A stretch of DNA of 64,000 nucleotides, from positions 496,001-560,000 of the forward strand of contig NZ_CP102664.1 of the NCBI RefSeq assembly GCF_026427355.1, given 5' to 3'. Shown piece by piece: positions 24,262 to 42,844 of the stretch; the first letter of the stretch is position 1, and the number at the start of each line of letters is the position of its first letter. The notes under the pieces are model-generated. The model saw only the letters and a program-made list of their open reading frames with translations. It was not told the DNA's origin and ran no database searches. Source of the DNA: Sphingobium sp. JS3065 (GTDB lineage Bacteria > Pseudomonadota > Alphaproteobacteria > Sphingomonadales > Sphingomonadaceae). The position numbers and the translations under genes are program-made.

Positions 24262-24657
24262 CTACCTGACGGAGAAGGCGAACTGGCCCTGGATTCGATG
24301 CGTGTCAGCCGACACCGCATGCCAGGTCACGGTATAGGCCCCGCGTGGCAAGGCCCTCGCAAAAGTAGCGATCAGTGTCTTGCCGTCGGACGAAAATTTC
24401 GTCCGGATCGCGGGCAACGGAGCCATGCCCGTGTGAGCCGCATGATCAGCATGGGACATACCGGCAGGCGCAATTTCCAGACCTGTCAGTTGCGGCATCA
24501 GCCGTTCGGAGAAGCGAAGGGTTATCTGGCGCGCATTTTGTACCGCTGACTGCGCGGCGGGGATCGAGGATACCAGCCTTGGATGAGCCAGCGCGGGAAC
24601 GGCCGTTGTCATCGCAATCGCAGCGATGGCGGTGGCGATCGATCTGATGGTCTTCAT
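24262..24657 (-). CDS. copC: Periplasmic copper-binding protein CopC
   Basis: This 131-residue protein has a signal peptide ending at PALA, leaving His as the first mature residue (AHPRLVSS), the usual N-terminal Cu2+ ligand in CopC. The C-terminal part ADTHRIQG supplies the matching acidic and His ligands. A central loop (GMSHADHAAHTGM) adds Met and His that could bind Cu+. It is the first gene of the leftward copC-copD-DUF2933-methyltransferase operon. The start is 27 bases from the -10 of the inferred promoter. Confidence 0.94.
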   Translation of the reverse strand: MKTIRSIATAIAAIAMTTAVPALAHPRLVSSIPAAQSAVQNARQITLRFSERLMPQLTGLEIAPAGMSHADHAAHTGMAPLPAIRTKFSSDGKTLIATFARALPRGAYTVTWHAVSADTHRIQGQFAFSVR

Positions 24658-24684
24658 GCAACACTCCTGGGATATCTGCAGGCA

Positions 24685-24712
24685 ATACGCGGGTCGCGCC
24701 CTGACCCCTCAC
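24685..24712 (-). promoter_or_regulatory. Putative CnrH-like ECF promoter for copC operon
   Basis: Read on the minus strand it is GTGAGGG, a 15-base spacer, then GCGTAT, followed 27 bases later by the copC start. It is one of six copies with identical spacing and is back-to-back with the promoter of the sigma operon. Confidence 0.8.
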
Positions 24713-24730
24713 ATTCCAGCCCAAAATAAT

Positions 24731-24759
24731 TTGAGGGATTGGTCCTTCCGTTGCGTATG
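24731..24759 (+). promoter_or_regulatory. Putative autoregulatory ECF promoter of the sigma operon
   Basis: TTGAGGG, a 15-base spacer, then GCGTATG lie 26 bases before the ATG of the anti-sigma gene. It faces away from the copC promoter, with 18 bases between the two -35 elements. Sigma factors of this group usually drive their own operon. Confidence 0.82.
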
Positions 24760-24785
24760 AAGGCTGACGAGTTTGGAGAGGAAAA

Positions 24786-25067
24786 ATGACAGATATCGAA
24801 AGCGCACTTGCCCGATTGCGAGACCTTCCGGTTGATCCGCGCCTGAGCATGATAGATGCTGCGGTACTTGACGGGTTGCAGCGGGAACTGGCTGCGGGCG
24901 GTCGTCAGTCAGGCGGGCTGTTTGCAACAGCGGCCGCAGTCGCACTCGTTACCGGGCTTTTGGGTTCCGCCATTCCTGGTGCACCTGCGAATGCAGCGTC
25001 AAATTCGTTTCCGCTGGGAGCGCCTGCGGCGCTGGCCCCGTCGACGCTGCTGACGAGTGCGGAATGA
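24786..25067 (+). CDS. CnrY-like membrane anti-sigma factor (probable)
   Basis: This small 93-residue protein has a soluble N-terminus (about residues 1-40, with acidic and Leu-rich helices) and one membrane segment (about 43-63, GLFATAAAVALVTGLLG). A short Ala/Pro/Ser tail follows, probably periplasmic. By sequence alone it is not recognisable, but its size, single membrane span and position before a CnrX-like sensor and an ECF sigma factor fit CnrY, which holds the sigma factor at the membrane. GGAGAGGAAAA precedes the ATG. Its stop overlaps the sensor start (ATGA). Confidence 0.7.
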   Translation: MTDIESALARLRDLPVDPRLSMIDAAVLDGLQRELAAGGRQSGGLFATAAAVALVTGLLGSAIPGAPANAASNSFPLGAPAALAPSTLLTSAE

Positions 25068-25504
25068 ACAATCGATCCCGTTACCTGCTGGTTATCCTCA
25101 TCGCCTTTGGTGCGGCATTGGCAGGCGTCTTTGTGGGCCGCAGCTACATTGTTCCGCCCCCGCCAGTTGAAAGCGAGCTTCACCACCTCCTCCACGAGAA
25201 ACTCGATCTGGATTCTGGCCAGGAAACGAAGATCGAAGCCCTTGAAGCGCAATTTGCCATCCAGCGGCAGGCGCTCGAACTGGAACTGCGAGCGGATAAC
25301 TCCCGCCTCGCGCAGGCTATCCAGACCGAGCGCGGCTATGGCCCGCAAGTCAGCGCAGCGATCGACCGTTCGCATCAGGCGATGGGAGAACTCCAGAAGG
25401 CAACGCTCGAGCACATATTCGCCATGCGCAGTGTGCTGAGACCGGAACAGGCCGCGCAATTTGATGACGCAGTGGTCAAGGCGCTGACCGCCGAGGCAAA
25501 ATGA
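25064..25504 (+). CDS. cnrX: CnrX-like periplasmic metal sensor
   Basis: This 146-residue protein is anchored by one N-terminal membrane segment (residues 7-24) with a helical periplasmic domain of the heavy-metal-resistance (CnrX/ZraP) fold. The five residues I recall as the metal site of CnrX (H42, H46, E63, H119, M123) are all present at the same spacing, as H40, H44, E61, H117 and M121. In CnrX this site binds Ni2+ or Co2+ and the signal releases the sigma factor from CnrY. It is coupled by ATGA overlaps to both neighbours. The surrounding genes are copper genes, so the true inducer is open. Confidence 0.87.
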   Translation: MNNRSRYLLVILIAFGAALAGVFVGRSYIVPPPPVESELHHLLHEKLDLDSGQETKIEALEAQFAIQRQALELELRADNSRLAQAIQTERGYGPQVSAAIDRSHQAMGELQKATLEHIFAMRSVLRPEQAAQFDDAVVKALTAEAK

Positions 25505-26064
25505 GCCTCGATCTTGGTGCGTGTTCGGACGGCGAACTGGCAGCTCTGGCGATCGGAGGAAGGCAAACCGCCTATACCGAATTGTTGCGTCGGCATCGCG
25601 ATGCCATTTTCCGTTTCGCCAGGGCGCATACCGCCGACGACGATGCAGCTCTCGATATAGCCCAGCAGACCTTCATTGCCGGATTTGCCGCGCTGGGGCG
25701 CTTCGATCAGTCGAGGCCGCTCAGGCACTGGCTGACCCGTATTGCGCTCAACAAATGTCGTGATTGGGCACGGCGCAGAAAGGTGAGCGCGCTCTTCTCG
25801 TTTGCTACGCCATTGGAAAGCGCCCCTGATCCGGTCGATCTCTCGGCCGATGTTGAACGCGAAGCCAGCGATCGTGAGGAACTGGCCAATGTTCTTAGCG
25901 CAATGAGCAGACTTCCGGCTAAGCTCAAGGACGTAATGGTGCTGCGCACGGTCGAGGGGCTTTCGCAGGTGGAAACTGCCGTGCTTTTGGGCATTACCGA
26001 AAAAGCTGTCGAAACGCGGCTCCACCGCGCACGCAATAACTTGCAGGAAATTTTGAGGGTCTGA
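25501..26064 (+). CDS. cnrH: CnrH-like ECF RNA polymerase sigma factor
   Basis: This 187-residue sigma-70 family ECF factor has region 2 at about residues 25-95 (RFARAHTADDDAALDIAQQTF, then RPLRHWLTRIALNKCRDWARR). Region 4 spans about 125-180, with helix-turn-helix EGLSQVETAVLLGITEKAVETRLHRAR. No extra domain is visible. It ends the three-gene sensor operon, and its last codons contain the -35 element of the copA promoter. The repeated TGAGGG-N15-GCGTAT sites upstream of the copper genes are its likely targets; from memory the promoters of CnrH have a similar GAGGG and CGTATA pair. Confidence 0.92.
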   Translation: MSLDLGACSDGELAALAIGGRQTAYTELLRRHRDAIFRFARAHTADDDAALDIAQQTFIAGFAALGRFDQSRPLRHWLTRIALNKCRDWARRRKVSALFSFATPLESAPDPVDLSADVEREASDREELANVLSAMSRLPAKLKDVMVLRTVEGLSQVETAVLLGITEKAVETRLHRARNNLQEILRV

Positions 26065-26081
26065 CGCAACTTCTGCGTATC
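26053..26081 (+). promoter_or_regulatory. Putative ECF promoter of copA-copB
   Basis: TTGAGGG, 15 bases, then GCGTATC. The -35 lies in the last codons of the sigma gene and the -10 is 34 bases before the copA ATG, so copAB can be transcribed separately from the sensor operon. Confidence 0.82.
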
Positions 26082-26115
26082 TGTACGCAACAGGTATCAG
26101 GCAGGACTGCTTCCC

Positions 26116-27912
26116 ATGACTTCCAACTACGCGTCCGTTCCGGGCATAGATCGCCGCGCGCTGCTGCGCGGTGCCGGCCTCGCTGGCAGCGGCTTTGCAC
26201 TTGCCGCGTGGATGCCTGCCTGGGCACAGCCGGTTTCCCGCGGCATCGCCCGACCGGTGCCGCAGCTCTCGGGCGACACCATTGCTCTTCGAGTTGCCCA
26301 CGAGATGGTTCGTGTCGACGGCCGTGATGCCCACGTCATTGCAATGAATGGCACCGTGCCAGCGCCGCTGCTGCGACTACGTGAAGGGCAAAAGGTCAGG
26401 ATCACGGTCGACAACGCGCTGGATGAGGAGACCTCGGTTCACTGGCACGGGCTGCTTGTGCCGTTCCAGATGGACGGGGTGCCGGGGGTCAGCTTTCCGG
26501 GGATCAAGCCGCATTCGTCATTCACTTATGAGTTTCAACTCGAGCAGTCGGGTACTTACTGGTACCACAGCCACTCCGGCCTGCAGGAGGCGATGGGCCA
26601 TTACGGCCCGATCGTGATCGATCCCAAGGATGTCGATCCGATCGCTTATGATCGCGAACATGTGGTTGTCTTTTCCGACCACAGCTTCATCCACCCGCAT
26701 ACGCTGTTCACGAAGCTCAAGCAGGAATCCGGATATTTCAACCGGCAGAAGCAGACGCTGGCGGGGTTGGCGGAGGGCAAGGACCAGACCCATGCCGAGC
26801 GCCTTGAATGGGCGCGGATGCGGATGGATCCTACCGACATCCTCGACGTGACCGGTTCGGTCTATACCTACGTTGTCAACGGCTATGGTCCGAATGACAA
26901 TTGGACGGCGCTGTTCGAGCCTGGCGAACGCGTCCGGCTGCGGTTCATCAACGCATCGGCGATGACGATCTTCAACGTCCGCATCCCGGGTTTGCGGATG
27001 ACGGTGGTTGCGGCCGACGGACTTCCGGTGCGTCCGGTTCCGGTCGACGAACTGCAAATGACCATTGCCGAGACGTACGACGTGATTGTCACGCCGACCG
27101 CGGATCGCCCCTATACGATCGTCGGTGAGGCGGCTGACCGGTCAGGTCTCGCTCGCGCTACACTGGCTCCCCGGCCGGGGATGGCTGCTGAGGTTCCGCC
27201 GTTGCGCGCACGTCCGCTGCTGACGATGAAGGACATGGGCATGGGAGGCATGGATACTTCTGTCTCCGATGATCCACATGCCGGGCATGACATGGCCGGC
27301 ATGGATATGCCTGCCACCGGTAGCGGCGCGGCAGGGCAGGCGGGCGCTGCCGGACACTCGATGTCGATGCGTGACGGGGCCAATGCGCCCCAGGTGGTGC
27401 TTGGCCCCGGTGTTCAGTCGATCGCGCCGATGCCTGTGGACCGAACCGGAGAACCCGGCGTCGGCCTTGAGAACGTCGACCACAAGGTTCTGGTCTATCG
27501 CGATCTCGTGGCGCTGGAGCGAAATCCAGACGAACGCGGGGCTGCGCGGGAAATCGAGGTTCACCTCACCGGCAACATGGAGCGCTACATGTGGTCGATG
27601 GACGGTAAGACGCTATCGGAGGCGAAGACGCCGATAGCGCTCCGGACGGATGAGCGGGTGCGCGTGACCCTGATAAACGACACCATGATGAATCATCCAA
27701 TCCACCTGCACGGGCATTTCTTTGAACTGGTCACCGGACACGGGGCGTACAGCCCGCGCAAGCACACGGTAAACGTCGCACCGGGCGGCAAGGTCAGCTT
27801 CGACGTGACCGGTATCCACGGCGACTGGGCCTTCCACTGTCACATGTTCCTGCACATGCACGCAGGGATGATGCGCGTGGTGCAAGTGCGTGATGCGGGA
27901 GATGCGGCATGA
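26116..27912 (+). CDS. copA: Multicopper oxidase CopA (periplasmic copper resistance)
   Basis: This 598-residue periplasmic oxidase of the CopA/PcoA group oxidises Cu+ to Cu2+. A Tat signal peptide carries twin Arg (DRRALLRGAG) and ends near PAWAQP at residues 34-39. Copper ligands are HWHG near 109-111, YWYHSHSG near 151-153, HPIHLHGHF near 527, and HCHMFLHMHAGMM near the C-terminus. A Met/His-rich linker (MGMGGMD, HAGHDMAGMDM; about 375-400) adds Cu+ sites, as in PcoA. Its stop overlaps copB (ATGA). Its own ECF promoter motif lies just upstream. Confidence 0.96.
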   Translation: MTSNYASVPGIDRRALLRGAGLAGSGFALAAWMPAWAQPVSRGIARPVPQLSGDTIALRVAHEMVRVDGRDAHVIAMNGTVPAPLLRLREGQKVRITVDNALDEETSVHWHGLLVPFQMDGVPGVSFPGIKPHSSFTYEFQLEQSGTYWYHSHSGLQEAMGHYGPIVIDPKDVDPIAYDREHVVVFSDHSFIHPHTLFTKLKQESGYFNRQKQTLAGLAEGKDQTHAERLEWARMRMDPTDILDVTGSVYTYVVNGYGPNDNWTALFEPGERVRLRFINASAMTIFNVRIPGLRMTVVAADGLPVRPVPVDELQMTIAETYDVIVTPTADRPYTIVGEAADRSGLARATLAPRPGMAAEVPPLRARPLLTMKDMGMGGMDTSVSDDPHAGHDMAGMDMPATGSGAAGQAGAAGHSMSMRDGANAPQVVLGPGVQSIAPMPVDRTGEPGVGLENVDHKVLVYRDLVALERNPDERGAAREIEVHLTGNMERYMWSMDGKTLSEAKTPIALRTDERVRVTLINDTMMNHPIHLHGHFFELVTGHGAYSPRKHTVNVAPGGKVSFDVTGIHGDWAFHCHMFLHMHAGMMRVVQVRDAGDAA

Positions 27913-28910
27913 CCCGGCTTACATTGCTCGCGGTGTTCCCGCTCGTTCTAGCTACTGCGGTGTCTGCCCAGACCACCATCCCGCCGGTGGATCACGGGAT
28001 GCATCATGGCCACGCCTTGCCAGCCCCGCCAGCCTCCCCGGCGACACCATCCCCCCCGCCGGCCGAGACTGAAGCCCATGCCGGGCATGACATGCACGGC
28101 ATGGAAGCGATGCCGATGCCCGAAGCCGCACCTCAGGATACGAAAGAAAGGGCCGGCACCGATCTGGAGCCGGGCAACGCTTCGCCGCCGCCCGTGGCAG
28201 GCGACCGCGCTGCCGACACTTACTTCGATCCCGCTGCGATGGCTGAGGCGCAATCCGCGCTGCTAGGCGAACATGGGGGTATGAAATTCCACAAGGTGCT
28301 GTTCAACATCGCCGAGTTTCAGGCGCGAAATGGCCGCGACGGGTATCGCTGGGATGCCAGCGCCTGGTTCGGCGGCGACATCGACCGTCTTGCACTCGAG
28401 TCCGAAGGCGAAGGCAACTTCGGCGAAGCGAGCCATCATGGTGAGTTGCAGGCGCTCTGGTCCCATGCAGTGGATCCCTACTGGAACCTGCAAGGCGGTG
28501 TTCGCCAGGACTTCGGCAAGGGGCCAGACAGGACTTATGCCACTATCGGCATCGAGGGGCTCGCTCCGTATTGGTTCGAGGTCGAAACGGCGGCGTTTGT
28601 CTCGACGAAAGGCGATGTCCTCGCCCGGATCAAAGTCGACGTTGACCAGCGGATCACGCAGAAATTGATTTTGCAGCCGCGCCTCGAGGCGAATATCGCA
28701 GCGCAGGACGTTCCGGAAAGTGGGATTGGCTCCGGCCTGTCAAATCTCGAACTGGGGCTGCGCCTGCGCTATGAACTGCGCAAGGAATTCGCGCCCTATG
28801 TCGGTGTGTCGTGGGAACGCAAATTTGGTGACACGGCGCACTATGCACGCGCAGCTGGCGAGAACGCGTCATCGACGAGCTTCGTTGCCGGCATCCGTTT
28901 CTGGTTCTGA
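27909..28910 (+). CDS. copB: Outer-membrane copper resistance protein CopB
   Basis: This 333-residue protein has a signal peptide (cleaved near VSAQTT). A His/Met/Pro-rich segment follows (HHGHALP, HAGHDMHGMEAMPMPE; about 35-75), typical of CopB copper binding. The rest is an amphipathic beta-barrel of about 240 residues ending in aromatic FVAGIRFWF, a proper outer-membrane C-terminus. It is coupled to copA by an ATGA overlap. CopB probably binds copper and may pass it across the outer membrane. Confidence 0.93.
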   Translation: MTRLTLLAVFPLVLATAVSAQTTIPPVDHGMHHGHALPAPPASPATPSPPPAETEAHAGHDMHGMEAMPMPEAAPQDTKERAGTDLEPGNASPPPVAGDRAADTYFDPAAMAEAQSALLGEHGGMKFHKVLFNIAEFQARNGRDGYRWDASAWFGGDIDRLALESEGEGNFGEASHHGELQALWSHAVDPYWNLQGGVRQDFGKGPDRTYATIGIEGLAPYWFEVETAAFVSTKGDVLARIKVDVDQRITQKLILQPRLEANIAAQDVPESGIGSGLSNLELGLRLRYELRKEFAPYVGVSWERKFGDTAHYARAAGENASSTSFVAGIRFWF

Positions 28911-28950
28911 ACGCGCAGCATCCGGGAGCCGCGAATATTTTGCTCAGGTT

Positions 28951-28979
28951 GCGAGGGGGCATTGCGGCACGTGCGTATA
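28951..28979 (+). promoter_or_regulatory. Putative ECF promoter of the DUF305 gene
   Basis: GCGAGGG, 15 bases, then GCGTATA lie 30 bases before the DUF305 start. It is the weakest -35 of the six (CGAGGG instead of TGAGGG), but it has the same spacing and the same -10. Confidence 0.7.
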
Positions 28980-29009
28980 GCTTTTCAAGACCGGCTCAGG
29001 AGAAGCAAC

Positions 29010-29567
29010 ATGAAGATTTTGGCACTCGCAACGACCGTCGCACTTGCCATGACGGGGACAAGCGCCGTCGCGCAAACTCAGCCCTCAACGAGCGCCGAAC
29101 ACGATCATACCCATGGCCAGACCGCTGCGCCTGTCGCCACTCTTCCTGCACTGCCCCAGGCAACTCCAGCCTCGCCCGCACCTCCGGCAGGCCAAAGGAT
29201 GGAAGGCATGCCCGGAATGGGCGGCATGAAGGGAATGGAGGGCAAGCCAGGCATGGGTGGGATGCCGGGCATGGGCGATATGCAGCATATGCCGATGATG
29301 CAGCCAACGGCAGCTAACCCGTTTCCGCCGGCTGAAATGGACATGCACATGGCGATGATGCATGCGACCGGCGCCGATGCGAACGAGACCTATGTGCGCA
29401 AGATGATCGAGCATCACCGCGGCGCGGTTGCAATGTCGCGGCTTGTCGTGGCCAGCAGCAAGGATTCCCGCGTCCTGCGATTGGCGAACCAGGATATCGC
29501 GGCACAGACTCGGGACATCGTCGGCCTTCAGGCCTGGCTGAGCCAGCACGGCAAGGCCGCACAGTAA
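29010..29567 (+). CDS. DUF305 protein, periplasmic, Met/His-rich
   Basis: This 185-residue secreted protein has a signal peptide ending near SAVAQT, a Met/Gly-rich repeat region (MPGMGGMKGMEGKPGMGGMP; about 70-95), and a DUF305 domain. The domain has the core motif YVRKMIEHHRGAVAMSRL, with a His pair and Met suited to metal binding. I chose the ATG at 29010 because AGGAGAAGCAAC precedes it; an upstream in-frame ATG at 28962 lies before the -10. Several DUF305 proteins are linked to copper. The exact role is not known. Confidence 0.87.
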   Translation: MKILALATTVALAMTGTSAVAQTQPSTSAEHDHTHGQTAAPVATLPALPQATPASPAPPAGQRMEGMPGMGGMKGMEGKPGMGGMPGMGDMQHMPMMQPTAANPFPPAEMDMHMAMMHATGADANETYVRKMIEHHRGAVAMSRLVVASSKDSRVLRLANQDIAAQTRDIVGLQAWLSQHGKAAQ

Positions 29568-29590
29568 CAGCGGCAGCGCGAGGAACCGCA

Positions 29591-30046
29591 ATGAGAAGAT
29601 CCCTACGCCTCGCGGTCTTACTTGCCGCTGCGGTTCCATCCCTTGCTCTCGCTGCCACAACCGGGGTCGTTCACCGCGATCCAGGCTGCGGCTGCTGCGA
29701 GAAGTGGTTCGCGCTGGTCAAGCAGCAGTTCGGTCAGAATATCAGGATGATCGATGACGCCCGGCGCAATGCCTACCAGACCCGTCTGGGCGTTCCACCG
29801 AACCTGGTGTCCTGCCATACAGCGGTAATCAATGGGCTCGTCTTCGAGGGGCATGTGCCGATTGCCGATATGAAGCGAGTTCTCCGCGAGCGACCGCGCG
29901 GCGTTACTGGGCTTGCCGTCTCGGGCATGCCCATGGGCTCGCCCGGCATGGAAGTTTCCGGCAACCGGAGCGTAGCCATTGTCGTAACGGCGTTCGGGCC
30001 CGGCGGGACGCGGGTATACGCCCGTTACGCAGCCAGAGGCCTCTAG
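29591..30046 (+). CDS. DUF411 metal-binding protein
   Basis: This 151-residue periplasmic protein has a signal peptide ending near LALAAT. It has the DUF411 core HRDPGCGCCEKW (a CxCC cluster, about residues 27-38), later SCHTAVINGLVFEGHVP, and a Met-rich GMPMGSPGMEV. The cysteines and histidine probably bind copper or another soft metal. It follows the DUF305 gene by 23 bases and likely shares its promoter. Confidence 0.88.
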   Translation: MRRSLRLAVLLAAAVPSLALAATTGVVHRDPGCGCCEKWFALVKQQFGQNIRMIDDARRNAYQTRLGVPPNLVSCHTAVINGLVFEGHVPIADMKRVLRERPRGVTGLAVSGMPMGSPGMEVSGNRSVAIVVTAFGPGGTRVYARYAARGL

Positions 30047-30177
30047 GTTTCCAGGCCGCCTGACGAGAGGGTGTGCCTCGCAGAGGGCAAGTATGAATGC
30101 TGGGGTCACCGGATTAGCGCATAGAACAGGCCTGCATCCTGACCTCGCACTGGCAGTAGGAAGAAAGGGGCGAAGCG

Positions 30178-31590
30178 ATGAATGCAGCGAAAGGAACTGC
30201 CAGAGAGACAGCAATGCCAGCGGCTGATGAATTTTCCATCCGCTTCCTTGGCGCCGCCGGGACGGTCACTGGGTCGCGTTACCTCGTTGAAGCAGCCGAT
30301 ACCCGCCTGCTCGTCGACTGCGGGCTTTTCCAAGGGGGGCGCGAGCTGCGTGAACGCAACTGGGAAGAAATTCCCCATGCGGCAGAAACGGTAGATGCGG
30401 TCCTGCTCACGCATGCGCACATCGATCACTCCGGCTATCTGCCGAGACTGGTCAAGAACGGTTGGGCAGGGCGGATCGTCAGTACCACCGGGACGGCCGA
30501 TCTGTGTCAGCTCCTGTTGCCGGACAGCGGTTTCCTTCAGGAGAAGGACGCGGATTTCTCGAACCATCGCGGGTTCAGTCGTCACAAACCGGCACTGCCG
30601 CTATACACGCAAGATGATGCAAAGGCTGCCCTTGAATATTTTGCACCGGTTGACTTCGAAACCGAGCAGGAGCTGGCCGACAGCACCCGGTTCAAATTTC
30701 GCCGCGCTGGGCATATCCTTGGCGCCTCCTTCATCGAATTGACGACCGGGTCGCGGAAGGTCACTTTCTCAGGTGACCTTGGCCGTTATGATGATCCGGT
30801 CATGAAGGATCCCGAAGTTCCCCTCGAGACAGACTACCTCGTTCTGGAATCTACTTACGGCAACCGGCTGCATGAACGTGTCGATGCGATGGAAGCCCTT
30901 GGCGAGGCCATCGAGAAATGCATTGAGCGTCGCGGGACAGTGGTTATCCCGGCCTTTGCTGTCGGACGCGCGCAGACGCTGCTTTTCCACCTGTCACGCC
31001 TCAGGAAGGCCGGACGGCTTCGGGGGGTGCCCGTATATCTGGACAGTCCCATGGCCATCAGTGCCAGCAAGATATTCTGCCGGCATCTGGGGGACCATCG
31101 TCTTACCCCCGAACAGTGCGAAGAGACCTGCGACGTACCGCAATATGTGCGCGATGTCGAAACGTCGAAGCAGATTTCGCGGAGCCATGAGCCGAAGATC
31201 ATCATCTCGGCCAGCGGCATGGCAACGGGCGGCCGCGTAGTCCACCACATCAAGCAGTTCGCCCCCGACCCACGCAACCTGATCCTCTTCGCGGGGTTCC
31301 AGGCTGCTGGAACGCGCGGCGCAAGAATGGTTGAAGGCGCCAGAAGTCTCAAGATCCACGGTGAGCAGATCCCGCTCAATGCCGAGGTGGCCAATTTGCC
31401 GATGCTTTCGGGCCATGCAGACGCGGATGAGATCATGCGTTGGATTTCTGCAATCAAGAAGCCGCCTCGGATGACTTTCATCACCCACGGCGAACCGACT
31501 GCTTCGGAAGCCTTGCGACAGCGGATCGAGAAGGAACTGGGCTGGAAATGCAAGATCCCGGTTCAGGGCGAACGGGCGATCCTGGCATGA
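30178..31590 (+). CDS. MBL-fold beta-CASP RNA-specific metallohydrolase
   Basis: This 470-residue cytosolic enzyme belongs to the metallo-beta-lactamase superfamily with a beta-CASP domain and RNA-specificity C-terminal domain. The zinc-binding motif HAHIDHSG is near residue 80, a second His lies in RAGHILGA, and Asp in SGDLGRYDDP. The late motif SGHADADEI and the C-terminal THGEPTASEALR match RNase-J/CPSF-like nucleases. It is the first gene of a coupled triplet with AMP phosphorylase and PRPP synthetase (ATGA overlaps). RNA turnover would release nucleotides for the next enzymes, which is inference. Confidence 0.92.
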   Translation: MNAAKGTARETAMPAADEFSIRFLGAAGTVTGSRYLVEAADTRLLVDCGLFQGGRELRERNWEEIPHAAETVDAVLLTHAHIDHSGYLPRLVKNGWAGRIVSTTGTADLCQLLLPDSGFLQEKDADFSNHRGFSRHKPALPLYTQDDAKAALEYFAPVDFETEQELADSTRFKFRRAGHILGASFIELTTGSRKVTFSGDLGRYDDPVMKDPEVPLETDYLVLESTYGNRLHERVDAMEALGEAIEKCIERRGTVVIPAFAVGRAQTLLFHLSRLRKAGRLRGVPVYLDSPMAISASKIFCRHLGDHRLTPEQCEETCDVPQYVRDVETSKQISRSHEPKIIISASGMATGGRVVHHIKQFAPDPRNLILFAGFQAAGTRGARMVEGARSLKIHGEQIPLNAEVANLPMLSGHADADEIMRWISAIKKPPRMTFITHGEPTASEALRQRIEKELGWKCKIPVQGERAILA

Positions 31591-34018: not shown

Positions 34019-34137
34019 GCAAGGCCGCTGTTCGCCTCGTCCCGGCATTTCGTTGGCCCGGTGCATTGACGCGCAGTTGAAGTTCAGCTTGGCAATGGTG
34101 GCGTTTTAGCATTGGTTCTCGGCGTCGTCCGGTCGTT

Positions 34138-36558
34138 TTATCTTGCATTGGCCCGGCGTCTTGCCAGCTTCTCCAACTCCAGAATGAGCAACGGTACCGC
34201 GCCAACGCCGAGCGACAGCGCGCAGTCTGCCAGTGAGAGCGGGCCGATCCGGAAAACTTCCTGGGTCGTGGGCATATGGTGGATGGCAAGTTGAGCCAGC
34301 AGCGACACCACGACAATCAGCACCAGCTTCATGTTGCTGAACAACCCCACTTCCCAGAAAGGCCGGTCCGGGTCCCGAGCAGAAAAGGCGCGCAGCAATT
34401 CGCCAAAAACGAGCACGGAGAAGGCAAGATTGCGTGCTTCTTCGAGGTTTCGGGCATCGCGTGCCCACAGGAACACCCCCATTACACAGACCGTCTGTAT
34501 TGCGGCTGCCAGAAGGATACGGCGCCATTCGGGACGACCCAGTATCTGCTCGCTTGCCGACCGGGGCGGACGGGTCATCAAGCTGGAATTTCCGCGGTCC
34601 GTCACCAGTGCAAGAGCGGGAAGTCCATCGGTCACCAGATTGATCCAAAGCAGGTGAATCGGCAGCAGGATGGTCGGAAAACCCAAAGCAGCACCGACAA
34701 ACACAACCGCCAGTTCGGCCATGTTGCCTGCGACTAGGTAAGCCGTGGACTTGCGGATGTTTTCGAAGATCCCTCGACCTTCTTCAACCGCCGCTACAAT
34801 CGTCGCGTAATTGTCGTCGGCCAACACGATGTCTGCCGCACCGCGCGTGACCTCCGTTCCAGTCTGGCCCATTGCGATGCCGATATGGGCTTCCCGCAAG
34901 GCCGGTGCGTCATTGACGCCGTCACCGGTCATGGCGACGATCTCGCCGCGGGACTTCCATTCTCTTACTATTCGCAGCTTGTCTTCCGGGGTCGCGCGAG
35001 CGTGCACTATATCGTCCGCACTTTGCCCCGGTTTCAGGATGCCCATTTCCTGGGCAATTGCATGGGCTGTCAGCTTGTGATCGCCTGTGATCATCACCGT
35101 GCGGATACCAGCTGCCTGCGCCAGCGCGATTGCATCGATCGCTTCTGTTCGAGGAGGATCCGCAATGCCGAGCAGGCCGACCAACTCGAGATCTGCTTCA
35201 CTGTCGGCGCGACCCATGGCGATAGCCAGAACCCTCAATCCGCGGGCGGCCATGTCGCTGGCGGCCTCCTCGGTGCCATCGGGAATAGTCGTCGATCGTG
35301 CAGAGATCGCCTCGACGGCGCCCTTTGCATAGAGAAGGCCGTCCGTGCGGTAGATGGACATGCATTTGCGGTCTGCATCGAACGGGTACACCGACACACG
35401 CGGGCGTTCCGCTTCGATCGCATCTCGCCGGATATCGCGCTGCGCTGCGGCCACAATGATGGCAACCTCGGTCGGGTCGCCAACGCCGCCTTGTTCGTCG
35501 GCTGACAGCTCTGCGTCCGAACAGGCCGCCGCCGTGTCGAGCACACGCTGGTGATCCTGGCCCCAGATTTCGCGGACGGCCATAACTCCCGTCGTCAATG
35601 TTCCTGTCTTGTCCGTGCAGATGACCGTTGCGCAACCAAGTGTTTCGACAGCTGTGAGCCGCCGCAGGAGTGCGTGGCGCGCGGCCATCCTTTGCATGCC
35701 GACCGCAAGGGCTATGGTAACGATGGCTGGCAGGCCTTCAGGCACTGCCGCAACCGCGAGGGAGATGGCGGGCAAAAGCAGATCGAGGCCGGTCAGGCCT
35801 TGGCGCCAGCCGAGTATGGTTACGGCAACGACGATTCCCAGACAGATGAGCATCAGCCGACGGCTAAGCACCGCGAGGCGTGCCTGGAGCGGTGTGGCCT
35901 CGTCGGTTGCCGCAGTCAGCATTTCGGCAATGCGACCGAGCTCCGTCCGCATCCCGGTGGCAATGATCTCTGCCAGACCTGTCCCCGTTCCGATATGCGT
36001 TCCGGCAAATACATGGTCACTGCGCTGGGCCAGGGGGGCAGCCGGATCTCCCGGCTTCGCAGTCTTGGTTACCGGTGTGCTCTCTCCGGTAAGCGCGGCC
36101 TCCATAGCCGTCAGGACATTTGCCTCCAACAGCCGGGCATCGGCGGCGACAACGTCTCCTGCCTCAAGTGCCAACAGATCGCCGGGCACGACAGCAGCAG
36201 CGGCAATCACCTGCGTCCGGCCATCGCGGATGACGCGCGCGCGCGGAGCGGTCATCGCCCTCAGCGCGAGGACGGCTTTTTCCGCTCGGTACTCCTGAAA
36301 GAAGCCTACCAGTCCATTGACAATTACAATCGTCCCGATTGCGGCAGCATCAATGATTTCGCCGACCAACGCGGAGACGACACAGGCCACCAACAGCAAC
36401 CAAATGACGGGACTGTTGAACTGGGCGAGGAGAAGGCGCCATGCTGGCCGTGCCGACTTCACTCCCAATTCGTTTGGTCCCGCCTCCACGAGAAGGCGGG
36501 CCGCAATTGCACTCGTCAGGCCGACAGTTGATGACGATCGAACCGCTTCCAGGGCCAT
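34138..36558 (-). CDS. P2-type cation-translocating ATPase
   Basis: This 806-residue ATPase is of the Ca2+/Mn2+-like P2 group rather than P1B: it has PEGLP in the fourth membrane helix and no CPx. The phosphorylated residue is D316 (DKTGTLT), the actuator motif is TGEST near residue 155, and [11 protein letters not shown] is intact. About ten membrane segments fit the group, with four in the C-terminal quarter. The ATG at 36558 is coupled to the cusA stop as TAATG; a longer upstream frame would run inside cusA. It lies at the end of the RND operon, so it may remove a divalent ion from the cytoplasm. The ion is not certain. Confidence 0.9.
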   Translation of the reverse strand: MALEAVRSSSTVGLTSAIAARLLVEAGPNELGVKSARPAWRLLLAQFNSPVIWLLLVACVVSALVGEIIDAAAIGTIVIVNGLVGFFQEYRAEKAVLALRAMTAPRARVIRDGRTQVIAAAAVVPGDLLALEAGDVVAADARLLEANVLTAMEAALTGESTPVTKTAKPGDPAAPLAQRSDHVFAGTHIGTGTGLAEIIATGMRTELGRIAEMLTAATDEATPLQARLAVLSRRLMLICLGIVVAVTILGWRQGLTGLDLLLPAISLAVAAVPEGLPAIVTIALAVGMQRMAARHALLRRLTAVETLGCATVICTDKTGTLTTGVMAVREIWGQDHQRVLDTAAACSDAELSADEQGGVGDPTEVAIIVAAAQRDIRRDAIEAERPRVSVYPFDADRKCMSIYRTDGLLYAKGAVEAISARSTTIPDGTEEAASDMAARGLRVLAIAMGRADSEADLELVGLLGIADPPRTEAIDAIALAQAAGIRTVMITGDHKLTAHAIAQEMGILKPGQSADDIVHARATPEDKLRIVREWKSRGEIVAMTGDGVNDAPALREAHIGIAMGQTGTEVTRGAADIVLADDNYATIVAAVEEGRGIFENIRKSTAYLVAGNMAELAVVFVGAALGFPTILLPIHLLWINLVTDGLPALALVTDRGNSSLMTRPPRSASEQILGRPEWRRILLAAAIQTVCVMGVFLWARDARNLEEARNLAFSVLVFGELLRAFSARDPDRPFWEVGLFSNMKLVLIVVVSLLAQLAIHHMPTTQEVFRIGPLSLADCALSLGVGAVPLLILELEKLARRRANAR

Positions 36559-39500
36559 TACGCGTCGCTCCGTACTGTCCCGGACGCCTTTAGCTGGGAG
36601 TGACGCCACAGGGCATATGCGGCCGGTATGACGAGCAAAGTCAGGAACATGCAGAACCAGAGGCCGCCAACCACGGGGGCGGCAGTGCGCGCCGAAAGAT
36701 CGGCGCCCACGCCCGATTCCCAAAGCAGTGGCATGAGCCCGAACACCGTGGTTGCGACCGTCATGAGCATCGGGCGAAGGCACCGGGAAGCGCCCTCCAT
36801 CACAGCAGCATCGATATCGTCCCCAGTGCGTAACCGATCCTGTTTCACCGCTTCCGCATAAGCCTGGTCGAGGTACACCACGACCACCGTGCCGGTCTGG
36901 GCCGCGACCCCCCCGACGGCGATCAATCCGACCCACACAGCGGTTGAAAGGTTGTAGTCAAGGAGTGCCAAGAGCCAGATGCTGCCGGCAATAGCAAAGG
37001 GCAAGCTCAGCATAACCAGCAAGGTTTGCTGCCAGCCTCCCATGGACAGATACAGCAATATGCCAACCAGAACGACCGTGAGGGGAACCACTGTCCGCAA
37101 ACGCGAAGTCAGTTCCGCCATGAATTCATACTGTCCGGTCCACTGCAAGCGATAGCCAGGTGGAACTTCGATCCGATCTGCTACGACGCTTTTGGCATCA
37201 TCCACCCATCCGCCAAGGTCGCGCTGTGATGTGTCGATATCCGCGAAAACGTAGCCCACCAGTATGCCGTTTTCGTTCTTGATCATTGGCGGCCCGGTGA
37301 CGACTTTCACGTCCGCGAGTGCCGCCAAGGGTACGACGGAGCCGGCCTGCTGCCCATTGCTCCACTCCGCACCGGTGCGGCCGGCTCCATTCATCGGCCC
37401 GGCATTCTTGTTCGTGCCACTGCCGCCGGAGGCCCCGCTACCCATGCCGCCGCCCATGGCGTCCATCCCGGCGCCTGATTGAACCTGGCTTTGTCCCGCC
37501 GGCGATGACCCGCCACCTGCCGTTCGGCCTTCGGTGAACGACAAAGTCTTGGGTGCCGGGATCGGGACGAGCAGTTCGTTCAGAGCCTGCGGGTCGGCCC
37601 TGAAGTCGGCCGCGTAGCGGACGTTTACGGAATATCGGGCTCTGCCATCAATGACAGTGGACACTGGCATGCCCCCGATCGCAGCCTCGACCAGATCCTG
37701 AACGTCCCGCACGGTCAAACCATATCGGGCTATCGCATCTCGCCTTGGTTCAATGTCGATGTACTCCCGTCCGCTCTGACGCTCGGCGAAGGTGCTGCGC
37801 GTTCCCGGAACTGTCCGCAACGCCCCCTCAAGAGCTACGCTCAAGCGCTCGATGCCTGCGAGATCGGGACCAAACACCTTGACGCCTACCGGGGTCCGCA
37901 CCCCGGTTGTGAGCATGTCAATCCGTGTGCGGATGGGCGGTGCAATCGCCATCTGGTAACCCGGCATGCGCAAGGCCGCATCAAGATCGCGCGATAGCTC
38001 CGAAACGGTACGCTGTCGGCGATCCGGCCAGATTGTTCTCAGGCCTCCCTGAACCCACGATGGGGCCGTATCGCTATACCAACGTGTGACGGGAATTGTC
38101 GGCCAGTCGTCATGGGGTTTGAGTGTGATCACCGATTCGCTCATGTCCAACTGGGCTGGATCAGTGGCGGTTTCCGCGCGCCCTGCTTTGCCATGGACCA
38201 TCTTAACTTCACCGAAGGTCATGATGATCCGATGCTGCGTGTTCAGCGCGCGCCGGGCTTCTTCTATTGAGATGCCGGGGAAGGTCGTGGGCATCACCAG
38301 CAACGATCCCTCGTCCAGCGGGGGCATGAATTCAGAGCCGAGACGCATGAAAACAGGCACAGTTGCGGCCATCACGAGTGCCGCGACGCCGACCACGGCG
38401 AGGCGCCATTGGATGATGAATCGTGCGATGGGGCGATAGAAACTGCCGAGTATGCGGTTGAGCGGGTTCTCTGTTTCAGTGCGGAACCTGCCACGCAGTA
38501 GCCAGATCATCAGCGGCGGTGCGAGCGTGATCGAGAGGATTGCTGCAAAGAACATGGCCAGCGTCTTCGTATAGGCCAGCGGCATGAAGAGCTTTCCGGC
38601 CTGCCCGGTCAGCGTGAAGATCGGTAGAAAGCTGACTGTTATGAGGAGGAGGGAATAGAAGATCGGTTTGCCGACTTCTTTTGCGGAATCGACGATGACA
38701 CGAATGCGTTCCTCCGGTTTTGCATTCTCGGCCAGTCGCTTGTGCGCATTTTCGATCATCACGATCGCGGCGTCACTCAATTCACCGACCGCAATCGCAA
38801 TTCCGCCAAGGGACATGATATTGGCTGAAATGCCAAGATAGCGCATGCCAATGAATGACAGGAGCACAGACATCGGAAGGATGATGAGGGCAACCAGCGC
38901 CGATCCGCCGTGCATCAGGAAGATGAGGCAGATGATCGCAATGATAGCCCCTTCGATCATCAGCGTATCCGTCAATGTCTCGATGGATCCGGTAATTAGT
39001 TCCGAACGGTCATGCGTCGTTTTGATGCGCACTCCGGGTGGCAATGCAAGCTGGCCAATCTGACCTTTGAGCGCCTCGATCACTTCCTGGGCGTTTGAGC
39101 CCAATCGCATCACCACAATGCCGCCGACGGCTTCACCCTTGCCATCAAGGTCTGCAGTCCCGCGGCGAATCTCCGGACCGAATTGCACGCTGGCGACGTC
39201 GCGCACGCGGATCGGTGTGCCACCATCGGCAACAGTAACGACGCTTTGCTCGAGATCCTGCAGGGTCTTGGCATAACCGCGTCCGCGCAGGACATACTCC
39301 CGTCCGCTCATTTCGAGGACGCGGGCACCGACTTCGGAGTTTGCGTCGCGCACGGCGCGCGAAACGTCCGCTGGGGTGATGCCGAAGGCCGCAAGTTTGT
39401 TTGGGTTCAGCAAAATCTGGTATTGCCGCTCGAAGCCCCCCATTGAGGCGACTTCCGCGACGCCTTTCACACCTTGGAGCGCTGGGCGCACTGTGAAGTC

Positions 39501-39980
39501 CTGCAGCGCCCGCAACTCAGCGGCATTCAAGCGTCCTGAGGTGTCCTCGAGAACATATTGATATATCCAGCCCACGCCGCTTGCATCGGGACCGAGCGTC
39601 GGGACTACGCCCGCAGGCAGTTGCTGCTGCACACGACCAATCTGCTCGAACACTCGGGTGCGGGCCCAGTAGATGTCTGTGTCGTCACCGAAGATTGCGT
39701 AGACAAAGCTCATCCCGAACATCGAATATCCGCGAACAGTGCGGACACCGGGTGTACTTTGCAGGGCTCGCACCAGCGGATAGGTAATCTGGTCTTCTAC
39801 CAGGTTGGGACTGCGACCCATCCAGTCGGTAAATACGATCACTTGCGGATCGGAAAGGTCCGGAAGTGCATCCAGAGGCGTCTTGCGCATTGAGTCGACC
39901 GCCCAGGCCGATAGGACGAGCGCGATCGCCAACACCACCCACCGCCGCTTGGCGCACCATTCGATGATGTGCTCGATCAT
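36558..39980 (-). CDS. cusA: CusA-type copper/silver RND efflux pump
   Basis: This 1140-residue inner-membrane pump of the heavy-metal RND family has about 12 membrane segments and two large periplasmic loops. The Met relay I recall from CusA (M573, M623, M672) is visible as M563 (VMPTTFPG), M613 (LDMSES) and M689 (RIDMLTT), pointing to Cu+/Ag+. The membrane motif near residue 400 reads SDAAIVMIENAHKR. It contains a Gly/Ser/Met-rich insertion of about 65 residues near 811-878 that I do not expect in the family. It overlaps cusB by 4 bases, with the P2 ATPase downstream. Confidence 0.96.
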   Translation of the reverse strand: MIEHIIEWCAKRRWVVLAIALVLSAWAVDSMRKTPLDALPDLSDPQVIVFTDWMGRSPNLVEDQITYPLVRALQSTPGVRTVRGYSMFGMSFVYAIFGDDTDIYWARTRVFEQIGRVQQQLPAGVVPTLGPDASGVGWIYQYVLEDTSGRLNAAELRALQDFTVRPALQGVKGVAEVASMGGFERQYQILLNPNKLAAFGITPADVSRAVRDANSEVGARVLEMSGREYVLRGRGYAKTLQDLEQSVVTVADGGTPIRVRDVASVQFGPEIRRGTADLDGKGEAVGGIVVMRLGSNAQEVIEALKGQIGQLALPPGVRIKTTHDRSELITGSIETLTDTLMIEGAIIAIICLIFLMHGGSALVALIILPMSVLLSFIGMRYLGISANIMSLGGIAIAVGELSDAAIVMIENAHKRLAENAKPEERIRVIVDSAKEVGKPIFYSLLLITVSFLPIFTLTGQAGKLFMPLAYTKTLAMFFAAILSITLAPPLMIWLLRGRFRTETENPLNRILGSFYRPIARFIIQWRLAVVGVAALVMAATVPVFMRLGSEFMPPLDEGSLLVMPTTFPGISIEEARRALNTQHRIIMTFGEVKMVHGKAGRAETATDPAQLDMSESVITLKPHDDWPTIPVTRWYSDTAPSWVQGGLRTIWPDRRQRTVSELSRDLDAALRMPGYQMAIAPPIRTRIDMLTTGVRTPVGVKVFGPDLAGIERLSVALEGALRTVPGTRSTFAERQSGREYIDIEPRRDAIARYGLTVRDVQDLVEAAIGGMPVSTVIDGRARYSVNVRYAADFRADPQALNELLVPIPAPKTLSFTEGRTAGGGSSPAGQSQVQSGAGMDAMGGGMGSGASGGSGTNKNAGPMNGAGRTGAEWSNGQQAGSVVPLAALADVKVVTGPPMIKNENGILVGYVFADIDTSQRDLGGWVDDAKSVVADRIEVPPGYRLQWTGQYEFMAELTSRLRTVVPLTVVLVGILLYLSMGGWQQTLLVMLSLPFAIAGSIWLLALLDYNLSTAVWVGLIAVGGVAAQTGTVVVVYLDQAYAEAVKQDRLRTGDDIDAAVMEGASRCLRPMLMTVATTVFGLMPLLWESGVGADLSARTAAPVVGGLWFCMFLTLLVIPAAYALWRHSQLKASGTVRSDA

Positions 39981-41230
39981 GGTTGATGCTCATGTTGCGC
40001 AGGCGCGGCAGCAGCTGGCGCAGTCTGTTGTCCCGCCGGTGCCGGTTGAGGAGAACCTCCGTGCCCTCCATGTCCGGTCGCCCCCGATGCTCGCAGGCGG
40101 CTTTCAGAGTCGATGAGGAACACTCCAGCGGAAACGACGAGTTCTCCAGCCGCAAGTCCATCCAGGACTTCCACCCGGTCTCCAACCTTCGCACCGAGTT
40201 TGATCGTGCGAGGTTCGAACCGATTGTCACCACTCCGGACAAAGACGTGCTGCGTTATACCGGTATCAACCACCGCATCGCGGCCGATAGTGAGGGCATT
40301 ACGTGGTGCTGCCGAAATCTGGGCGCTGCCGTACATGCCCGGGCGCAGGGCACCGCCAATGTTGGGCACGGACATTCGAACCCGAATTGATCGCGTTCTT
40401 TCCGTGAGCATTGGATAGATGAATTCGACCCGCGCGATGAAGGGAGGTCGTCCTGACAGAGGGAATGTCAGCGAAGTGGGCGAACCGACCTGGATCCGTC
40501 CGGCACCAGCTTCCGCGACTTCGACGATGATCCAGAGCTGCGACACATCGGCGATCGACAGAATATTGGTGGAGGGGTCGACGGTAATCCCCTGGGTCGC
40601 GCCGCGATCCAGTACGAACCCGCTTCGCGGGGCCACAATGGTCACGAGCCGATTGGCCTGTCGGGTCCTTTCAATCTGCCTGATTTCACCATCGCTCATT
40701 CCGAGCACCTTCAGCCGGGTCCTGCCCGCTGCGAGTACGACGCTTGCAGGCGCGGTGTTCGCGCGCCGCAAGGCTGCCAGATATTCCAGCTGTGATGCGT
40801 ACAACTCCTGCGAGAAAACCGCTCCGAGCGCCTGTCCGGCCCGGACATTCTGGCCGGTAGTCCGCACGTAAAGCTGCTCCAGCCAGCCTGAAACTCGCGG
40901 ATGCACCTCGACGATACGGGATTCGTCGATCACCGCAGTTGCGACGCCTGGGACAGTTTCCTCAAGTTTTCGGACCTCGGCAGCCTCCATTTGAACGCCA
41001 AGCATATCCACTTGCTTCGCAGTCAACTCAACCGGCGCCCGCGCTGCAGCGGTGCTCGCCGCTACCGCCGTCCCCGGCGCAGTTTTTACGCGACCGGCAA
41101 CTTCGCTGGACGGGTGCTGTGGTGCAAAGGGCCATTTCTCGCGTTGTGCCTGAAAAGCGAGGATTGCGATCAAGACCCCAACGGGAATGACGGCGCTAGC
41201 AATGAGCGCGCGGGGTGAGTAGGTTTTCAC
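39977..41230 (-). CDS. cusB: RND periplasmic adaptor CusB
   Basis: This 417-residue membrane-fusion protein links CusA to the outer-membrane channel. It has one N-terminal membrane anchor (about residues 10-27), then the lipoyl/barrel domain with VPGVATAVIDESRIVEVHPRVSG and a helical hairpin. The C-terminus is rich in His, Gly and Pro (GHGGHGG, then QHEHQP), likely to bind metal. ATGA overlaps join it to cusC and cusA, so the three subunits are co-translated. Confidence 0.95.
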   Translation of the reverse strand: MKTYSPRALIASAVIPVGVLIAILAFQAQREKWPFAPQHPSSEVAGRVKTAPGTAVAASTAAARAPVELTAKQVDMLGVQMEAAEVRKLEETVPGVATAVIDESRIVEVHPRVSGWLEQLYVRTTGQNVRAGQALGAVFSQELYASQLEYLAALRRANTAPASVVLAAGRTRLKVLGMSDGEIRQIERTRQANRLVTIVAPRSGFVLDRGATQGITVDPSTNILSIADVSQLWIIVEVAEAGAGRIQVGSPTSLTFPLSGRPPFIARVEFIYPMLTERTRSIRVRMSVPNIGGALRPGMYGSAQISAAPRNALTIGRDAVVDTGITQHVFVRSGDNRFEPRTIKLGAKVGDRVEVLDGLAAGELVVSAGVFLIDSESRLRASGATGHGGHGGSPQPAPAGQQTAPAAAAPAQHEHQP

Positions 41231-42528
41231 TGGCGCCTCCGCTGGCTGTCCCCGGTCGCCCGTTCGAACTTGGACCAGGCTTCGCCCAATGCACTTTCGG
41301 CCATGACTTCATCCCCCTGTGCCTGCCAAAGCGCCCGAGCGGCCTCGACGACCGCGATGAGGGACCCTTGCCCCGACGAATAGCTGCCAAGCGCCGCATC
41401 CATCGCTAATTTTGATCGAGGCAGCACATCCTGGCGCAACAGGTTGACCTGCACCTGGGCTGCAATCACGTCTTCGCGCGCTGCAAGGGTTTCGCCAGCG
41501 ACCATCCGGCGCATGGCTTCCAGATCGGCGTCTGCCATGCGCTCCATGGCCTGTGCCTCTGCGACTCCGCTACTCAGGCGTCGCCGCCATATGGGAACGC
41601 TGATGCCGACCATCAGCATCGCTCCGGGACCCTCGGCCATGGTCTCGGCATACCCAGCTTTTACGGTCGCCATGGGTTTGTACATCGAGCGCATCGCGCG
41701 AGTTTCTGCGCCAGCGCGCTTTACCTCTGCGGTTCCCACCGCGAGCTCGGGCCGGTTGTCCGTGGCCAGTTCGAGCACTTCTGCAATTGACGCCGGCTCG
41801 GCAAGGCTGGGCTGATAAGCCAGTTCCGGAACTGAAGCATCCACAGGCAGGCCGAGGCCCGCGTTAAGCATCGCTTCGGCGCCGCGGATCTGGGCGGCGA
41901 GGGACTGCCGTTTCGCCTGCAGGCGGGCGACCTCGGCCTCGGCCCTGAGGATGTCGGCTTGTGCGCCACCGCCGCTCGCATAGCGACTTGCGGCCACATC
42001 GACGAGCAAACTGGCCAACGTGATCTGTTCGTCGATTACGGGCCGCATCCTGCGGCGTTCCAATAACATGAAGAATCCGCGCTGGGCATTGAGTACAACA
42101 TCCAACTCGGTCACGCCCGTAAGCGCCGTTGCTCGCTCTGCCTCGGCAATGGCGGCGGAGCGCCGATGGGAAAGAACACCCGATAGCGGGAATTGCTGTT
42201 CGACACTGATACTTCGATCGTAACGCCGTCCACCATCCATCATCGCGCTGAATGGGTAGTGGTCGACCGAAACCGACACCATTGGATCCTGGAGGGAAGA
42301 CACGATGGCGGGGCGCTGAGCAAGAGCATCGGCACGGGCTTTTGCCGCCGCTATTTCGGCCCGGTTCTGCAGAGCAATGGCCGCCACGTCCGATAGGCGC
42401 AAAGGCGAGCGGAGGCTGGAGGTTTCCTCGCGCACAGCTGCAGTTTCAGCGATGTTTTGTGCTTTGCTTTCGTGCGGCACACATACCGAAAGCACGAGGG
42501 GCGCAGCTACCCAGATACGGTTTAGCAT
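41227..42528 (-). CDS. cusC: Outer-membrane efflux channel CusC (TolC family)
   Basis: This 433-residue channel protein of the TolC/OEP family has long coiled-coil helices in two repeats (about 60-230 and 250-420), for example LVDVAASRYASGGGAQADILRAEAEVARLQAKR. A signal peptide precedes ESKAQNI. I chose the ATG at 42528 because it gives a clean signal; another in-frame start at 42639 is possible. It is the first gene of cusCBA and the ATPase. The ECF promoter motif on this strand lies 244 bases upstream of this start (133 of the longer one). Confidence 0.92.
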   Translation of the reverse strand: MLNRIWVAAPLVLSVCVPHESKAQNIAETAAVREETSSLRSPLRLSDVAAIALQNRAEIAAAKARADALAQRPAIVSSLQDPMVSVSVDHYPFSAMMDGGRRYDRSISVEQQFPLSGVLSHRRSAAIAEAERATALTGVTELDVVLNAQRGFFMLLERRRMRPVIDEQITLASLLVDVAASRYASGGGAQADILRAEAEVARLQAKRQSLAAQIRGAEAMLNAGLGLPVDASVPELAYQPSLAEPASIAEVLELATDNRPELAVGTAEVKRAGAETRAMRSMYKPMATVKAGYAETMAEGPGAMLMVGISVPIWRRRLSSGVAEAQAMERMADADLEAMRRMVAGETLAAREDVIAAQVQVNLLRQDVLPRSKLAMDAALGSYSSGQGSLIAVVEAARALWQAQGDEVMAESALGEAWSKFERATGDSQRRRQ

Positions 42529-42772
42529 GAGGCCATGTATCCTGATGGGTGAATACGCGGGAAAGTTTGATCGAACATCCGGTCGCGTCGTTTGGTTGCC
42601 GCATGGCGACCTGCGCCATGACCCAACCGGACGTACCAAGGTAACGGCAGCGCGAGAGCCACGCTCTTGCTGGCCGTTTTAAATGCAGCGATCTCTAACC
42701 CCGAAATTTGAATTTCGTTTGTCTGGTCTAAACCGGAATGCCTCATAGCCCCCTCCGTTGCCCTGTAACCTT

Positions 42773-42800
42773 ATACGCTGCTGCGGCCGTTCCCCCTCAT
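42773..42800 (-). promoter_or_regulatory. Putative ECF promoter of cusCBA
   Basis: On the minus strand it reads ATGAGGG, 15 bases, then GCGTAT, pointing at cusC. It has the same spacing as the five other copies. The two divergent -35 boxes are 15 bases apart. Confidence 0.8.
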
Positions 42801-42815
42801 TGCCGCTAATTTTTT

Positions 42816-42844
42816 TTGAGGGCTATGTCCGGGCAGTGCGTATG
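42816..42844 (+). promoter_or_regulatory. Putative ECF promoter toward the 43030 lipoprotein gene
   Basis: TTGAGGG, 15 bases, then GCGTATG; a run of eight Ts precedes the -35. The next gene is 186 bases downstream, further than for the other members. Confidence 0.78.

Follow-up and report, generated by a model that had tools for sequence, protein, structure and literature searches.

Here we report six candidate promoters of a single architecture, TGAGGG-N15-GCGTAT, in a 64-kb stretch of the genome of Sphingobium sp. JS3065 (C1:496001-560000 of 5.11 Mb; hereafter the window, with positions counted from its first base). Taken jointly, and judged by sequence comparison, the six sites are very probably promoters of a CnrYXH-type module that is encoded between them and serves copper defence. 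In the mechanism we propose, Y, a small membrane anti-sigma protein, would hold the extracytoplasmic function (ECF) sigma factor H at the membrane until the periplasmic sensor X binds metal, most likely copper, and so weakens the grip of Y; freed H would then direct RNA polymerase to TGAGGG-N15-GCGTAT, raising expression of its own operon, of copCD, copAB and the DUF305-DUF411 pair and, in this genome, of cusCBA. We infer both the recognition of the sites by H and this sequence of events, the latter from CnrYXH, where PMC7689651 describes X binding periplasmic metal, Y loosening and H joining RNA polymerase.

A pattern scan of both strands recovered all six sites claimed in an earlier note on this DNA, with the spacer of 15 at 6/6, GCGTAT in every site, an exact TGAGGG at five and CGAGGG at the sixth. 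The positions given there for the two minus-strand sites (24685 and 42773) were correct, whereas the four plus-strand starts were each one base too low and are 24732, 26054, 28952 and 42817. With at most one mismatch allowed, the window contains exactly these six sites, where dinucleotide shuffles (n=100) average 0.27 and never exceed 2. At two mismatches or fewer there are 10 matches against 5.1 expected, a count reached in 4/100 shuffles, and we therefore treat the four extra matches as background and the motif as supporting only the six. The two strands of the window together contain 25 copies of TGAGGG and 24 of GCGTAT, and of all spacers from 5 to 30 only 15 gives an exact pair.

The module consists of three genes read in one direction, with ends that touch or overlap. 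H (25501..26064, plus strand) encodes a predicted ECF sigma factor whose best solved relative is CnrH (4cxf, E 4.6e-28), followed by SigW (5e-15). X (25064..25504, plus strand), a predicted periplasmic metal sensor, matches PF13801 and has CnrX as its best solved relative (E 2e-20); all seven of its matches in the PDB are named CnrR or NccX, CnrR being an older name of CnrX. Y (24786..25064, plus strand) gave no Pfam or NCBIfam profile match, and we regard it as a putative single-pass anti-sigma factor since it is CnrY-like in size (93 versus 95 amino acids, aa), position and hydrophobic segment (at residue 45 versus 46), with an alignment score of 16 against a shuffle maximum of 5 (n=500).

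Two sites stand back to back between this operon and copC. One (24732..24758, plus strand; expected start near 24766) faces Y-X-H and would provide autoregulation, and the other (24685..24711, minus strand; expected start near 24677) faces copC (24262..24657, minus strand), whose ATG lies 28 nucleotides (nt) past the -10 element and which is followed by copD (23345..24256, minus strand), both identified by Pfam/NCBIfam profile search. A third (26054..26080, plus strand) overlaps the end of the sigma gene and precedes the ATG of copA (26116..27912, plus strand; a multicopper oxidase gene, TIGR01480) by 36 nt from the -10, with copB (27909..28910, plus strand; PF05275) behind it. We consider these strong candidate promoters for YXH, copCD and copAB. 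The CGAGGG-N15-GCGTAT site (28952..28978, plus strand) is a good candidate for the DUF305 gene (29010..29567, plus strand), 32 nt past the -10, and probably also serves the DUF411 gene (29591..30046, plus strand; PF04214) 23 bases behind it; the DUF305 protein is CopM-like, passing the Pfam cut-off and falling under that of the NCBIfam CopM profile. Pfam cut-offs were likewise passed by copC, copD, copA, copB and the outer-membrane protein of a resistance-nodulation-division (RND) efflux operon, cusCBA. The site facing cusCBA (42773..42799, minus strand), with a 74-aa open reading frame (ORF) in between, is a plausible promoter, such cusCBA sites being known from one genome. The sixth (42817..42843, plus strand) faces a small lipoprotein gene across a leader of ~186 nt, and this weakest of the targets makes for a weak promoter candidate. 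The claim that all six lie upstream of copper or metal genes is thus secure for five and weak for the lipoprotein, given its long leader and the lack of any Pfam match.

The motif and most of its targets recur in relatives, for which one genome of each species was scanned and 80 named sigma loci were taken (the best of 399; 1.46 Mb in total). In 74 of them the exact motif is present, with 190 matches altogether and always with spacer 15; no match in these loci had a spacer of 8-14 or 16-24, and permuted hexamer pairs (~200) averaged 0.05 matches with at most 2. A motif-free search, in which the regions upstream of Y from 79 loci were reduced by shared 8-mers to 40 clusters of one locus each and all 5-mer pairs at gaps of 10-25 were counted, returned GAGGG-N15-GCGTA as its top dyad, in 39/40 clusters. 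The column profile of 188 distinct sites, selected with a less strict anchor in which GAGGG and CGTA are already set, has T before the -10 in 60%, T at the second spacer base in 68%, an A/T-rich stretch before the -35 and a peak of A (51%) nine bases after the -10, close to the distance of 8 for CnrH starts.

Relaxing the motif to [TC]GAGGG-N15-GCGTA[TG] gave 221 sites in the 80 loci, which face the YXH operon (60; 55 assigned by X and 5 by H), copA (58), copC (51) and DUF305 genes (8), with 43 targets that match no reference and one site without an ORF. Measured from the -10, ORFs of at least 60 aa have their first start at a median of 28 nt for YXH, 35 for copA, 33 for DUF305 and 28-32 for copC. 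By eye, 14 of the 43 unmatched targets resemble a single TonB-dependent receptor and 10 others a P-type ATPase with a YHS domain; Pfam confirmed one of each. Six more begin where Y is expected. In Sphingopyxis loci the promoter stands before a TonB-dependent receptor of ~900 aa and in several before a YHS-domain P-type ATPase (L128:14295, plus strand; L134, minus strand; others). None of the 221 sites targets cusC, the lipoprotein gene or the 74-aa ORF, all of which were among the references. In the proposal that CopABCD, CusCBA and DUF305 are driven together, the cop part is strong, the DUF305 part good and the cusCBA part plausible, its sites having been observed in a single genome.

Within the complete genome there are nine exact matches, namely five in the window, three at a second copper locus (C1:1735582, 1738680 and 1740048) and one in a dispersed repeat, and the reversed pattern has none. 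The earlier note had called for scans of this and related genomes; here eight of the nine exact matches lie in two copper clusters, and in the relatives most sites stand before copA, YXH and copC. Each of the two clusters has its own Y-X-H operon, copAB, copCD and DUF411 gene. Identity of the second locus (L041, C1:1732000-1742000) to the window is 55% for Y, 72% for X, 67% for copA, 57% for copB and 58% for DUF411; its divergent copC and copD are 47% and 40% identical, a cusBA-like pair (30-48%) lies further on, and a near-exact tenth site (GCGTAG) is found in its copC/Y divergent region.

Chance, or a repeat artefact, as the origin of the motif has in its favour that one of the nine exact genome matches (C1:109046) falls within a ~130-bp, imperfectly palindromic repeat found again at C1:1916260 and C1:3336262, the copies being 82-87% alike, and for this reason we do not count that match as a regulon member. 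This explanation is contradicted by the shuffle, spacer and permutation controls, is refuted for the six window sites and has a negligible probability overall. Outside both clusters and the repeat, 18 matches with one mismatch compare with 10 for the reversed pattern at one mismatch or fewer. We considered these as further regulon members and rejected them, as the 17 examined (C3:279308 left out) all lie under ORFs of at least 152 aa, unlike the six window sites, although this is a weak distinction because long spurious ORFs are common in GC-rich DNA.

The duplicated locus raises the question of which sigma factor acts on the window. A second CnrH-like sigma (C1:1738702-1739256) is 57% identical to H, shares with it the region 4 stretch EKAVETRL.RAR and has the same promoter sequence at its locus, and it could drive the window sites instead of the local sigma or alongside it. 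We think this possible, if rather unlikely: at each locus the sites stand before that locus's own sigma operon, as is usual in autoregulation, and 49/64 sigma-bearing genomes have a single such sigma (E<=1e-30), so that one is enough elsewhere. The claim that the local CnrH-like sigma drives the regulon draws support from the fixed spacer in the 80 loci, the placement of the sites, their start distance and the co-occurrence described below, but with a second sigma that has the same promoters it may not act alone, and cross-talk between the two is likely.

Motif and sigma factor also occur together across the order. Among 296 genomes, 122 have the exact motif (244 matches, against 15 for the reversed control), and it is found in 57/64 genomes with the sigma (E<=1e-30) versus 65/232 others (Fisher p 4e-19, uncorrected for kinship). 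Spacers were typed at 210 sigma loci with 174 distinct sigmas, some of the loci being the same place (the window, L031 and L209): 450 sites have spacer 15, 29 have spacer 16 and 18 any other from 11 to 21, or 365, 22 and 17, respectively, with each distinct sigma taken once. On a tree of the 174 distinct sigmas, built by a quick method and containing long branches, 144 are N15, 13 N16, two mixed and 15 without sites; the CnrH clade has four N16 rows and two without a site, and the N16 label needs at least six changes. Loci without an N15 or N16 site in the typed stretches, mostly from one family (f12), are L208, L237, L238, L239, L244, L253, L256, L257, L258, L259, L260, L261, L262, L263, L265 and L279. 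One genome (G544) has a sigma with N16 sites (L190) and a paralogue with N15 sites (L196), which gave the idea that a one-base difference in spacer insulates paralogous sigmas. We rejected it: N15 is dominant, and two single sigma loci (L226 and L281) each have one N15 and one N16 site, which suggests that one sigma accepts both spacers. Given these mixed loci and the repeated N16 changes on the tree, spacer length drifts, and strict insulation is unsupported.

The likeness to CnrH promoters that the earlier note pointed to can be made more precise. Transcription starts of cnrY and cnrC correspond to transcription start sites (TSS) 53286 and 54660 of pMOL28 in PMC9045368, and CAAGGG-N16-CCGTAT and CGAGGG-N16-CCGTAT, respectively, lie seven bases before them. 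TSS_53286 is labelled RpoD in its row of PMC11647585 and seemingly stands in the RpoD column of PMC9045368, the text of which puts the CnrH-dependent cnrYp within one base of it. The AGGG and CGTAT elements are common to both systems, but the resemblance is not exact, with N16 and CCGTAT in place of N15 and GCGTAT. Fixed spacing and conserved hexamers would equally fit the binding site of an ordinary dimeric transcription factor without promoter function. That explanation is very improbable given that the hexamers are unrelated and non-palindromic, the distance to the start codon is narrow and the mapped CnrH promoters share both elements.

Aligned to CnrX, X has H, H, E, H and M at positions 42, 46, 63, 119 and 123; H42, H46, E63 and H119 are metal ligands of CnrX. 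Met123 is described in PMC7689651 as a ligand required for signalling. Copper-flanked loci, by which we mean those where tblastn matched CopA, CopB, CopC or CopD within the surrounding stretch, keep all five ligands in 132/140 distinct cases with usable alignment, and have H106 and M109 (CnrX numbering) in 143/143 distinct cases, three from a corrected frame; E106 and A109 are found instead in 6/6 distinct loci flanked by a cnrC-like gene only. Among 25 loci with neither copper nor cnrC-like gene in the stretch, 20 have the H/M pair and five neither pair. The nickel-type loci form one clade, so the H/M difference reflects one evolutionary split rather than repeated evidence. This clade includes L257 and L258 of family f12, which also has many copper-type loci and is probably Caulobacteraceae, because a named Caulobacter plasmid encodes exactly the same sigma as one of the f12 loci.

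Several observations weigh against the regulon or against copper as its signal. The motif is present in the 65 genomes without the sigma at E<=1e-30, and is absent in its exact form from 7/64 sigma-bearing genomes and 6/80 named loci; typing revealed neither an N15 nor an N16 site in the stretches of 16/210 sigma loci. In six of the 65 genomes (G124, G134, G139, G162, G221 and G284) motif pairs are 1354 bp apart, close to the 1322 bp that separate the Y site from the copA site in the window, and a diverged sigma is therefore likely in them. On the side of the metal, the sensor retains the full CnrX ligand set, which would also allow nickel or cobalt as the signal, and copA, copB and copC of Sphingobium sp. 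ba1 were up in 10 mM Ni according to PMC5557971. The cnr cluster of Cupriavidus metallidurans CH34 is itself copper-induced (PMC7563307). These three points favour a module that senses nickel/cobalt or several metals, with its sites still sigma promoters and the cop genes drawn into a general divalent-metal response. We judge such a module unlikely, since both clusters of this genome, and most named relatives, have copper genes as targets and since copper-flanked sensors have a His/Met pair that is absent from nickel-type sensors. Copper, to judge from the target genes, is most likely the signal; the CnrX ligand set together with copper induction in CH34 and nickel induction in ba1 makes a mixed-metal response possible.

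More tentatively, and with somewhat less than even confidence, we suggest that a whole branch of the CnrYXH family in Sphingomonadales and probably Caulobacteraceae changed its metal from nickel/cobalt to copper, gaining a second metal site (H106/M109) beside unchanged CnrX ligands and taking on copper targets, and that its promoters drifted between spacers of 15 and 16 without losing function. If true, the metal of CnrX-like sensors could be predicted from the presence of H106/M109, and these two residues would offer a hypothesis for the conversion of a nickel/cobalt sensor into a copper sensor.

The cusCBA-type RND efflux operon (36558..42528, minus strand) ends ~6.5 kb behind the DUF411 gene and would be read on the other strand from the promoter near 42.8 kb; of the solved structures, E. 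coli CusA is the one its pump most resembles (E 3e-277), with ZneA at E 6e-133. At E<=1e-60, with about five candidates scored per genome, the cusC-type outer-membrane gene was found only in this genome (1/298 family genomes), and plasmid searches gave distant matches only. In a protein database, relatives of the outer-membrane protein at 84-96% occur in some Sphingobium, and those at 58-65% include Azotobacter, Rhodoferax and Steroidobacter. The operon looks imported, yet equipped with local promoters. Between the cusC-side promoter and the 74-aa ORF (42522..42746, minus strand) lie 26 nt; the ORF follows a GGAGGGGG stretch and overlaps the cusC ATG with its final codons (ATGCTAA). It has no Pfam match and no relative among the sigma loci compared, and is possibly a leader ORF or a small coupled protein. 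The putative lipoprotein (71 aa; 43030..43245, plus strand) is doubtful as a general target, as its relatives mostly lack a site: at L234 an N16 site precedes the gene by ~180 nt, no site was found up to 400 nt away at L133 or up to 450 nt away at the six places L284-L289, and in L290, a weak partial match, the only site faces away.

Should the regulon be confirmed, copper defence in many sphingomonads and their relatives would depend on a sigma factor held at the membrane and not on CopRS, CusRS or CueR, the better-known regulators, and any genome could be scanned with its promoter rule. No paper that we found describes this regulon or its promoter, within a search of open-licence articles in PMC that did not extend to the large ECF classification papers. 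Two other ECF sigma factors linked to copper offer partial parallels. CorE, the copper-dependent sigma of Myxococcus xanthus, is likewise assigned to copper genes; unlike CorE, the sigma described here has no cysteine-rich C-terminal extension, ending at residue 187 right after region 4 with cysteines only at positions 8 and 86. SigAb of Acinetobacter baumannii also combines an ECF sigma, two small partner proteins and a link to copper, with its anti-sigma genes downstream and copper genes mostly in its indirect regulon, according to PMC12153292.

The closest known systems are CnrYXH of C. metallidurans CH34 (pMOL28) and NccYXH, with which the module shares the Y-X-H order, homology of sigma and sensor, and the five CnrX ligands. 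Shared with CnrYXH, too, are a promoter before Y, a second just behind the sigma gene, and the AGGG and CGTAT elements. In contrast to the cnrCBA nickel-cobalt pump controlled by CnrYXH, the predicted targets here are cop, DUF305 and cus genes; the spacer is 15 with GCGTAT rather than 16 with CCGTAT, the sensor has H106/M109 where CnrX has E/A, and Y is not recognisable by profile. The pump-type targets and AGGG-N16-CCGTAT promoters of a Cnr/Ncc nickel-cobalt determinant are both missing. Judged by targets and promoter spacing, the predicted system is not a Cnr nickel-cobalt determinant; judged by homology and layout, it is a CnrYXH-type module.

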